Source: Shinella lacus
GTDB taxonomy: Bacteria > Pseudomonadota > Alphaproteobacteria > Rhizobiales > Rhizobiaceae
DNA: 64,000 nt
Direction: 5' to 3'
Assembly (NCBI RefSeq): GCF_010994755.1
Contig: NZ_WHSB02000007.1
Coordinates: 124,001-188,000 of the forward strand
In this document: in pieces, positions 48,348 to 50,441 of the stretch
Numbering within the stretch: the stretch's first letter is position 1
Layout: every line of letters starts with the position of its first letter
Translations under genes and position numbers: made by a program
The notes under the pieces: generated by a model
What the model saw: the letters and a program-made list of their open reading frames with translations, nothing else
Database searches by the model: none
What the model was told of the DNA's origin: nothing

Positions 48348-48440
48348 AAAAAGCCCCGCACGATGGCGGGGCAAAACAAGCGTCACGCTTGGCTTTCTGT
48401 GACGCGGGGGAGTGCTCGCAAATGACAAGCGAGCGACGAC
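48348..48440 (-). ncRNA. candidate trans-acting small RNA with intrinsic terminator
   Basis: Read on the minus strand there are three consecutive hairpins: GCTCGC-TTGTCATTT-GCGAGC (48434-48414), GCGTCAC-AGAAAGCCAAGC-GTGACGC (48405-48380) and the terminator GCCCCGC-CATCGT-GCGGGGC followed by TTTTT (48372-48348). Between hairpins 1 and 2 is the single-stranded ACTCCCCC, the CU-rich anti-Shine-Dalgarno type of seed used by rhizobial sRNAs. No ORF with a ribosome site covers it and no protein gene lies upstream to which the terminator could belong. The 5' end is not defined; a weak promoter (TTGGTT-N16-TTTTAT, 48567-48540) would give a ~185-nt RNA. Confidence 0.6.
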
Positions 48441-48740
48441 ACTCTACGACTTTGGTCTAATCGCGGGAAAGGCCTGATTCAGCCGATTCGGTACGGTTGT
48501 GAAAAAAATTGCACTTTTTCGACCCGGGACGACCGTGCGATAAAACCAGCAATAACTATAAAACCAAGGTGGCCATTTCACGGTTGCAACGACGCTGGCC
48601 TGTTCGTTAGCTTTGAAAATGCCCGAATGACTCCGGAATGCGCGGCGAACATCGGTGGGATTCGCGGTGGGGCCTTTGGTTCCAAAGCATTCATTCCGGC
48701 TCCTCTTGGTCCGTTTTCGCGCTGCGCCTCATTTTTCCTC
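48441..48740. other. intergenic DNA without a visible gene
   Basis: Apart from the possible sRNA promoter at 48540-48567 (minus strand), I see no ORF with a ribosome site, no repeat and no structured element here. The stretch is relatively AT-rich for this genome (for example the A-run near 48513). Confidence 0.6.
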
Positions 48741-48780: not shown

Positions 48781-48857
<77 letters not shown>

Positions 48858-49286: not shown

Positions 49287-50441
49287 TCAGGCGATGAGGC
49301 CGCGATAGACGGCTTCCGTCTCGCTGATCATGCGGGCCAGGCTGTAGTCGCCGCTGCGGGCGCGGGCAGCGGCGCTGTGGCGGGCGAGGCGGTCTGGATC
49401 GCTGAGGCGCAGCATGGCGCCGGCGAGCCGTTTCGGATCGTCGTCGTTTTCCACGAGCACGCCGTTCTCGCCGTCCTTCAGCACCATGGAAGCGCCGCCA
49501 ACGTCGGTGAGGATCAGCGGCTTGCCAGCGGCGGCGGCTTCCAGCATGACATAGGACATCGCCTCGTAGCGGCTCGGCATGACGAGCACATCGATGGCCG
49601 CCATCGCCTGCGGGCCTGTGAAGCCGGTGGTGAGGCGGATGCGCGGGGCATGGTCGGAGGCCTCGACCTGCTTTGCGACCGCACGCTCCGCCTCGCCGGA
49701 GCCGATCATCACCAGATGGGCATTCGGCACGCGGCCGGCGAGAAGCTGGAAGGCGGCGACGAGGCGCTCCGGCGCCTTCTGGTGGCAGAGCCGGCCGACG
49801 AAGCCGAAGAGCAGGGCGTCATCGGGGATGCCGAGTGCCTGGCGGACCGACTCGCGGGCGTGATCCGGTGGGGTCTCCACGCCGTTGACGACGATCGACA
49901 GTTTGTCCCGCGGCATGCCGAGCGCGCGGGCATGGGCATATTCGTCGGCCGAAACGCAGATCAACTTGTCGGTGAAGCCGCGTGCGAGCAGCTTTTCGAT
50001 CGAGCCATAGACCTTGCGGCCGAGATTGCCGAGACCGGGGTCCATGGTGCGGAAGGCGTGCGGCGTGTAGACCCGCGGGATGTGGCGGCCGGGCAGGCGC
50101 AGGCGCGACAGCGCGCCGGCCTTGGAACTGTGGCCGTGCACGATGTCGAACGGCCCGGCGCGGCGCATGACGGCGCGGATCGCCCGCCAGGCATTGAGGT
50201 CCGAGGGGCCGGGCGAGCGGGTCATCGCGACGATATGCGTGCCGGCAAGTGCCAGCGACTGCAATTCCTCGACGAAGCGCTCTTCGGCTCTCAGCGGCGA
50301 ATAGATGGCGTGCACGATATGGCCGCGCGCCTGCATGCCCCGGCAGAGGTCGATGAAATGCCGGCCGGAGCCGCCGCCGCTCGGCTCCAGCACCTGGAGC
50401 AGGCGCATCTGCCGCGGGTTCCTGTCCTGTTTGGTGCTCAT
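49287..50441 (-). CDS. glycosyltransferase family 4
   Basis: A 384-residue GT-B retaining glycosyltransferase. The N-domain begins MRLLQVLEPSGGGSGRHFIDLCRGM, with the Gly-rich loop that binds acceptor or nucleotide. The C-domain contains FGFVGRLCHQKAPERLVAAF and the GT4 EX7E motif in MPSRYEAMSYVMLEAAAAGKPLI. It is the last gene of the polysaccharide operon; its ATG overlaps the preceding ligase stop (ATGA). It probably adds one sugar to the lipid-linked repeat unit in the cytoplasm. Donor and acceptor unknown. Confidence 0.9.
   Translation of the reverse strand: MSTKQDRNPRQMRLLQVLEPSGGGSGRHFIDLCRGMQARGHIVHAIYSPLRAEERFVEELQSLALAGTHIVAMTRSPGPSDLNAWRAIRAVMRRAGPFDIVHGHSSKAGALSRLRLPGRHIPRVYTPHAFRTMDPGLGNLGRKVYGSIEKLLARGFTDKLICVSADEYAHARALGMPRDKLSIVVNGVETPPDHARESVRQALGIPDDALLFGFVGRLCHQKAPERLVAAFQLLAGRVPNAHLVMIGSGEAERAVAKQVEASDHAPRIRLTTGFTGPQAMAAIDVLVMPSRYEAMSYVMLEAAAAGKPLILTDVGGASMVLKDGENGVLVENDDDPKRLAGAMLRLSDPDRLARHSAAARARSGDYSLARMISETEAVYRGLIA

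Follow-up and report, generated by a model that had tools for sequence, protein, structure and literature searches.

A probable small regulatory RNA gene of Shinella lacus and its scattered relatives behind a shared promoter element

The stretch analysed here occupies positions 48348 to 48440 of a 64,000-nt window of Shinella lacus DNA (the window being the whole stretch of DNA that was analysed, to which all positions refer) and lies on the minus strand between a tRNA gene and a short ORF preceded by a putative SOS box (Table 1). An earlier note, made from the letters of the window, had described three perfect minus-strand stems of 6, 7 and 7 bp with an unpaired ACTCCCCC between the first two and TTTTT after the last, and had named a plus-strand tRNA as the next feature upstream. 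Direct reading and folding reproduced the stems exactly in position and length, the unpaired segment and the T-tail were borne out by reading as well as by the predicted fold, and the tRNA is indeed there, as a tRNA-Pro(GGG). The first upstream minus-strand ORF with Pfam support encodes a glycosyltransferase; it ends at 49287 and is separated from the RNA by the plus-strand tRNA and a plus-strand gene. On the other side, the start codon of orf78 lies about 105 nt past the RNA end, with the terminator in between. A -35/-10 pair (48322-48295) and the SOS box are both located downstream of the RNA's terminator; we named GAACATAATAGGAAC an SOS box on the basis of GAACN7GAAC, the LexA-type box of alphaproteobacteria. 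To judge from the letters and their comparison with relatives, this stretch very probably encodes a small regulatory RNA some 90 nt in length.

Table 1. Features of the predicted RNA gene and its neighbours, with positions in the window.
Feature	Position	Strand	Remarks
tRNA-Pro(GGG)	48781-48857	plus	nearest upstream feature
Promoter element	48467-48508	minus	T-tract 48508-48502 and 29-bp conserved core 48495-48467
Probable -10 region CGTAGAGT	48441-48448	minus	placed by spacing and conservation
Predicted small RNA, ~90 nt	48348-48437	minus	end set by the terminator; probable start near 48437
Hairpin 1	48434-48414	minus	stem GCTCGC/GCGAGC, 6 bp; two pairs with changes on both sides
C-rich linker ACTCCCCC (RNA ACUCCCCC)	48413-48406	minus	predicted unpaired; candidate anti-Shine-Dalgarno segment
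Hairpin 2	48405-48380	minus	stem GCGTCAC/GTGACGC, 7 bp; GCCAA in loop at 48393-48389
Hairpin 3	48372-48353	minus	stem GCCCCGC/GCGGGGC, 7 bp; with the U-tail, a predicted intrinsic terminator
T-tail TTTTT	48352-48348	minus	directly 3' of hairpin 3
LexA-type SOS box GAACATAATAGGAAC	48303-48289	minus	ahead of the downstream ORF; neighbour, outside the RNA
orf78	48243-48007	minus	78-aa ORF behind the SOS box; no Pfam match; neighbour

RNA folding of 48440-48345 (96 nt) predicted the three hairpins with ACUCCCCC unpaired, at a folding energy of -37.9 kcal/mol versus -26.1 kcal/mol for shuffles (z -3.99); an equal or better fold arose in 1 of 200 dinucleotide shuffles. Longer 5' ends weakened the fold (z -2.49 and -2.31, with 2 and 4 of 200 shuffles as good). 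The terminator formed by hairpin 3 was recovered by a separate scan, which reported 4 terminator-like sites in total against 2.1 expected, and the minus strand, read directly, carries TTGTTTT between hairpin 2 and the terminator hairpin. From the length range of 90–190 nt that had been proposed earlier, the short end stood, the RNA being probably about 90 nt long with a start close to 48437.

Nucleotide search located relatives of the RNA in all but one of 21 Shinella genomes and in 0 of 20 others (41 genomes in all). Window-type copies occur in 15 of the 21 Shinella genomes (L001-L015), each of these loci containing merR, and ten of them containing the tRNA-Pro inside the 3.2-kb locus. The source genome carries two copies, the window type and a second one at G000:C24:712576-712658. 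A SURF1 gene lies beside six non-window copies (L019, L021-L025), and kdpE also adjoins three of these; in L023-L025 the copy sits between the response regulator gene that ends the kdp operon and the SURF1/cyo genes (three genomes; L124 3293-4862), where a connection with potassium sensing is conceivable. For wider searches we built a covariance model, R1, from 22 sequences with a hand-set structure, adopted in place of a MAFFT/RNAalifold treatment of 31 mixed sequences that yielded 8 pairs only and misaligned hairpin 1. R1 pairs hairpins 2 and 3 only; the window locus, itself one of the 22, scores 93.1 bits (E 3.1e-25) and is the only match in the window at E<=1. At E<=1e-5, R1 matched 32 genomes out of 33 in a genus assigned to Sinorhizobium, since the match in one of them, G335, coincides in coordinates with that on pNGR234b; it also matched 18 of 297 genomes drawn from the bacterial family, in 9 of 109 genera, four of the nine with one marginal match each (2.8e-6 to 9.6e-6) that we left out as members. 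Two matches outside Shinella in the 41 genomes (R1, E<=1e-3) were marginal too.

Among individual strains, S. fredii NGR234 has a copy with the promoter element on pNGR234b. In Sm1021, pSymA gave two weak R1 matches (E 1.0e-7 and 0.005) and pSymB one (2.1e-7); the two better ones are without the promoter element, and a piece of pSymB found no match in the 33 Sinorhizobium-genus genomes at E<=1e-50. Some Sinorhizobium genomes contain two divergent copies in tandem, about 1.8-2.1 kb apart (L085 2875-4802; L093 5540-7481; G290:C22, G341:C2, G342:C1, G331:C4). A further observation concerns promoter-less relatives of hairpins 2 and 3 with a TTCCC linker, situated just behind protein genes (L201, L202; L181, L182; L186; near 1500), which, by reading of their translations, encode an MFS transporter (nitrate-transporter-like), a dipeptide-type ABC ATPase and a hydantoin-racemase-like protein. 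These may be 3'-UTR-derived RNAs, a source of the family, or chance look-alikes. The window RNA itself is very probably one copy of a family that recurs here and there in Shinella, Ensifer/Sinorhizobium and a few soil bacteria related to them, with the same DNA switch nearly always upstream.

The earlier note had pointed to covariation across relatives as a check on the stems, and the stems do co-vary. Among the orthologues (12 distinct sequences), each of the 240 pair cells holds a standard pair, also at the two doubly changed pairs of stem 1, and three of five measures beat every one of 500 shuffles; those that did not stand out were pairs changed on both sides (23/500 shuffles) and further pair types (500/500). 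Across the family, 98.4% of cells are paired in 79 distinct sequences aligned to R1, an alignment that leans toward R1's own structure, and 6 of 14 pairs have double changes; the covariation amounts to 0.273 versus 0.121 in shuffles (0/500 as high), and to at most 0.063 when the structure is slid. As regards hairpin 1, all 82 loci put through a simple parser yielded a helix of 5 bp or more, G-U pairs included, and the stems had 39 different sequences; this is a weak test because such helices are common by chance and the choice of the parser is doubtful in some loci. Seven of 89 distinct loci had been excluded from this parse, six for want of a CCC run (including L062 with its shorter RNA) and one for want of a recognised terminator. 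Set against mononucleotide shuffles, the fold was better than 95% of them for the hairpin-1 segment in 34 of the 82 loci and for the hairpin-2 segment in 42; a 5-bp hairpin 2 was missed by the parse in six of the 82, at least partly because the parser took the wrong C run. These comparisons indicate that the structure of the RNA is under selection.

Conservation extends beyond the RNA. An upstream block, CGTACCGGAWTCGCNGAATCAGACCTTCC, was found conserved in the alignment of relatives; the family consensus of the promoter element reads CGTACCGGAaTCGCgGAATCaGACCTTCC and, with this element included, the conserved unit reaches upstream to about 48508. In 29 representatives, the TA of the -10 region recurs at a nearly constant distance from the near-invariant element and the stretch between them is unconserved; such an unconserved spacer of nearly fixed length is the behaviour of a DNA promoter element, not of RNA. 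A general sigma-70 scan of the window did not report a promoter for the RNA, and since a good -35 is missing, we infer an activator. Allowing up to 3 mismatches, the element was found in 20 of the 41 genomes (35 places) and in 13 of the 297 family genomes (18 places; 5 of 109 genera), and the reversed pattern, used as control, matched nowhere in either set. An R1 match adjoins 35 of the 35 places in the former and 17 of the 18 in the latter search, the exception, L062, having behind the element a shorter RNA to which R1 gives no match. The exact degenerate pattern retrieved 47 stretches from named genomes, which belong to Shinella, Ensifer/Sinorhizobium and Pararhizobium or to a few strains called Rhizobium or Rhizobiales bacterium. 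R1 has a match in each of the 47, though some of these loci, or their copies, had served to build it.

The association also holds in the reverse direction. R1 contains no promoter columns, and 54 of 63 loci fetched with it have the element at most 110 nt upstream at <=5 mismatches, while among 630 control windows none came closer than 8 mismatches. The independence of this test is incomplete, since many of the 63 are R1 seeds or near copies. All 30 fetched best loci of the Sinorhizobium genus (L134-L163) carry the element at <=4 mismatches. The nine R1 loci without it at 5 mismatches comprise L175, counted here although misplaced (short contig), L176, where fragments of the element are left, L181, L182 and L186, which lie behind protein genes and miss it, and L173, L174, L184 and L188, in which it is not visible. 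The core in the window itself, though recognisable in the alignment, departs from the search consensus at 5 positions, and the window copy was therefore missed by the element patterns. Of the 15 window-type loci in Shinella, twelve match with no more than 1 mismatch, whereas the window, G009 and G019 do not, and this drift lowers our confidence that the window copy is regulated like the others. Inside the element there is a direct repeat, GGAATC-N2-GGAATC, in the window (48467-48495, minus strand) as in the family elements. GANTC, the CcrM methylation site, is present at both repeats in 20 of the 29 representatives and is absent from 2 of 29; control by CcrM is thus not required, and a link to the cell cycle through GANTC is possible but not obligatory. 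The notion of a free-standing sRNA gene with its own terminator, put forward in the earlier note, is supported by the promoter element, the predicted terminator and the compensatory changes in the stems, and the sequence comparisons thus speak for a stand-alone RNA gene that brings its own promoter element.

Since the RNA lies on the same strand as orf78 and ends ahead of its start codon with a terminator between, it could be a 5' leader or attenuator of this SOS-box gene. We consider this highly improbable, because 5 of the 15 orthologous loci keep the RNA without box or gene, other copies adjoin other genes, and the SOS box and the -35/-10 pair lie past the terminator. The box and orf78 are present together in 10 of the 15 window-type Shinella loci and are both absent from the other five (L006, L007, L010, L011, L013), the RNA being present in 15 of 15. 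The same counts bear on the earlier suggestion that the terminator isolates the SOS gene from read-through, which holds as geometry but fails as the reason for which the RNA is kept; insulation would be a by-product at most. In those five Shinella loci, which lack the SOS gene, about 30 nt or less separate the terminator from the merR end, a placement which, like the promoter-less relatives of hairpins 2 and 3 behind protein genes, would suit a terminator region only, for instance a two-way one between merR and upstream transcription, with the extra hairpins being fortuitous. This reading is very unlikely, if a little less so than a leader, given the compensatory changes in hairpins 1 and 2, the promoter element preceding the RNA at a nearly fixed distance, and the remoteness of the nearest Pfam-supported minus-strand ORF upstream, beyond the plus-strand tRNA and gene. 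Least credible of all is a small peptide encoded on either strand: mechanical ORFs of 45 to 88 aa do cross the region, but the orthologues differ by 1- and 2-nt gaps inside the RNA, which argue against a coding frame, and conservation follows stems and linkers, not codons.

A stand-alone RNA might also serve mainly as a sponge or decoy that binds a protein by its hairpin-2 loop and C-rich linker rather than pairing with mRNAs. Across 29 representatives, the mean unpaired probability was 0.70 for the linker and 0.88 for the hairpin-2 loop motif, compared with 0.45 for the whole RNA. The motif, GCCAA/GGCAA, is the more constantly exposed of the two: the linker is predicted to be mostly paired (<=0.40) in 9 of the 29, Shinella copies included, three consecutive C are missing at its position from 6 further distinct loci, and some Sinorhizobium copies carry GTTTCCGC or GTCTCCGC in its place. 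The constant exposure of this loop, and stem sequences that vary under a preserved shape, as in protein-binding RNAs, favour such a role, but there is no candidate protein bearing such a site, and an unpaired C-rich segment with a terminator fits known base-pairing rhizobial sRNAs (PMC10746234, PMC7143759). On balance we regard protein binding as unlikely, albeit the most serious of the alternatives, and a trans-acting sRNA with base pairing as its mode of action as rather probable. A search of the source genome for the pattern GGGGGAGT-N2-9-ATG returned 8 places versus 2 for the reversed pattern as control, and none of the 8 looks like a target: one is the antisense of the RNA itself, five are copies of a repeat, and the remaining two stand before frames of 61 and 24 aa. 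The five copies, of GGGGGAGTGTTCATG (L206-L210, near 1500), are each followed by identical sequence near contig ends of the source genome and are probably the end of a repeated element.

Our preferred reading, held with somewhat better than even confidence, is a stand-alone trans-acting sRNA of about 90 nt, made from an activator-dependent promoter and acting by short base pairing. RNA polymerase would start near 48437 at a promoter consisting of a poor -35 with the T-tract and the 29-bp element directly upstream, with an activator on this element as the likely switch. The transcript would end at the intrinsic terminator, where the U-tail and the preceding UUGUUUU would suit Hfq. The C-rich linker, and perhaps also the hairpin-2 loop GCCAA, would pair with the translation-start regions of several mRNAs, and the linker could engage Shine-Dalgarno sequences as the ar14 and AbcR sRNAs do, so that translation of the paired mRNAs may be lowered, as the layout and these known sRNAs suggest. 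We infer translational repression through the C-rich segment by this analogy. More tentatively, and with rather less than even confidence, we entertain a private sRNA regulon, in which a regulator reads a 29-bp operator found, at <=3 mismatches in the searched genomes, only before this sRNA family. Copies of the cassette of operator and RNA would have spread over several replicons and neighbourhoods among Shinella, Ensifer/Sinorhizobium and their kin, keeping the operator, the hairpin-2 loop and mostly the C-rich linker while exchanging stems. The present family would extend the rhizobial repertoire by a multicopy sRNA family of conserved structure that falls outside the ar families of Rfam. 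A covariance model and a diagnostic promoter element are ready for it, and expression and targets can be tested in laboratory strains that carry copies, S. fredii NGR234 for example.

At the gathering cut-off, Rfam 15 returned only tRNA in the window, in seven relatives and in eight more, which settles a check suggested in the earlier note: apart from the tRNA, the region matches no family there or in the scanned relatives. The best weak Rfam matches to the window, mainly to the 3' half with the terminator, were RyhB (RF00057) and anti-hemB (RF02837), at 22.7 and 20.1 bits versus cut-offs of 55 and 49.5, so that it is a member of neither; isrJ, Hrs1 and a betaproteobacterial sRNA appeared at a permissive threshold, well below their cut-offs. 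RcsR1, considered on account of possible Shinella homologues, is set apart by its published description as single-copy, with a start as in the trpL attenuator RNA and another layout. SmelB126 (pSymB), considered because of a published potassium-transporter link and the kdpE-adjacent Shinella copy, and SmelA003 (pSymA), both standing for multicopy families of S. meliloti, proved unrelated at their published loci: the best matches to the element had 10 and 12 mismatches, respectively, and R1 had no match at either locus in a search of both replicons (E<=0.01). In a search of the main texts of open-licence papers we found no description of the family, which is apparently undescribed so far, although individual copies may well figure in sRNA tables as transcripts without a name.

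Three described groups come closest. SmelB053/SmelC691 and their cold-shock 3'-UTR relatives have, in the published account (PMC3927594), likewise three hairpins, the first variable and the last a terminator, and relatives located in 3'-UTRs, as may be the case here; they are set apart by a second loop of GGAUGUA instead of GCCAA/GGCAA. AbcR1 and AbcR2 (alpha-r15) share with the window RNA three hairpins and a CU-rich segment of the anti-Shine-Dalgarno type and, according to PMC7143759 and PMC8844928, bind Hfq and have nutrient-uptake targets; unlike them, the window RNA has no Rfam match, no upstream LsrB motif GCAT-N3-TG-N3-T (by eye), and no LysR-type neighbour, to judge from a scan of six adjoining ORFs. 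The ar14 RNAs (RF02344; NfeR1/Smr14C2) were absent from the window and from 8 family loci at the cut-off in a cmscan in which the positive control, SmelA075, matched at 89.9 bits, and their LsrB site, TGCA-N6-GCAT, is absent from 48520-48440 (by eye). The ar14 RNAs work independently of Hfq and repress mRNAs, among them those of ABC transporters. As portrayed in PMC10746234 and PMC7143759, they have three hairpins with hypervariable stems and a conserved promoter stretch that determines expression. The new family resembles them in its length of about 90-125 nt, its three hairpins with variable stems, its C-rich unpaired segments, its several copies per genome and its conserved upstream promoter stretch. 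It differs in that ar14 exposes CCUCCUCCC unpaired in all three hairpins and has a -35/-10 promoter of CTTAGAC-N17-CTATAT, whereas the window RNA has a single ACUCCCCC linker, and the new family is characterized by a mostly CUYCCCC linker, a GCCAA/GGCAA loop and an unrelated 29-bp element. As this element was found only before this RNA, the protein that binds it can be sought directly, an approach for which NfeR1 provides a precedent (PMC10746234).
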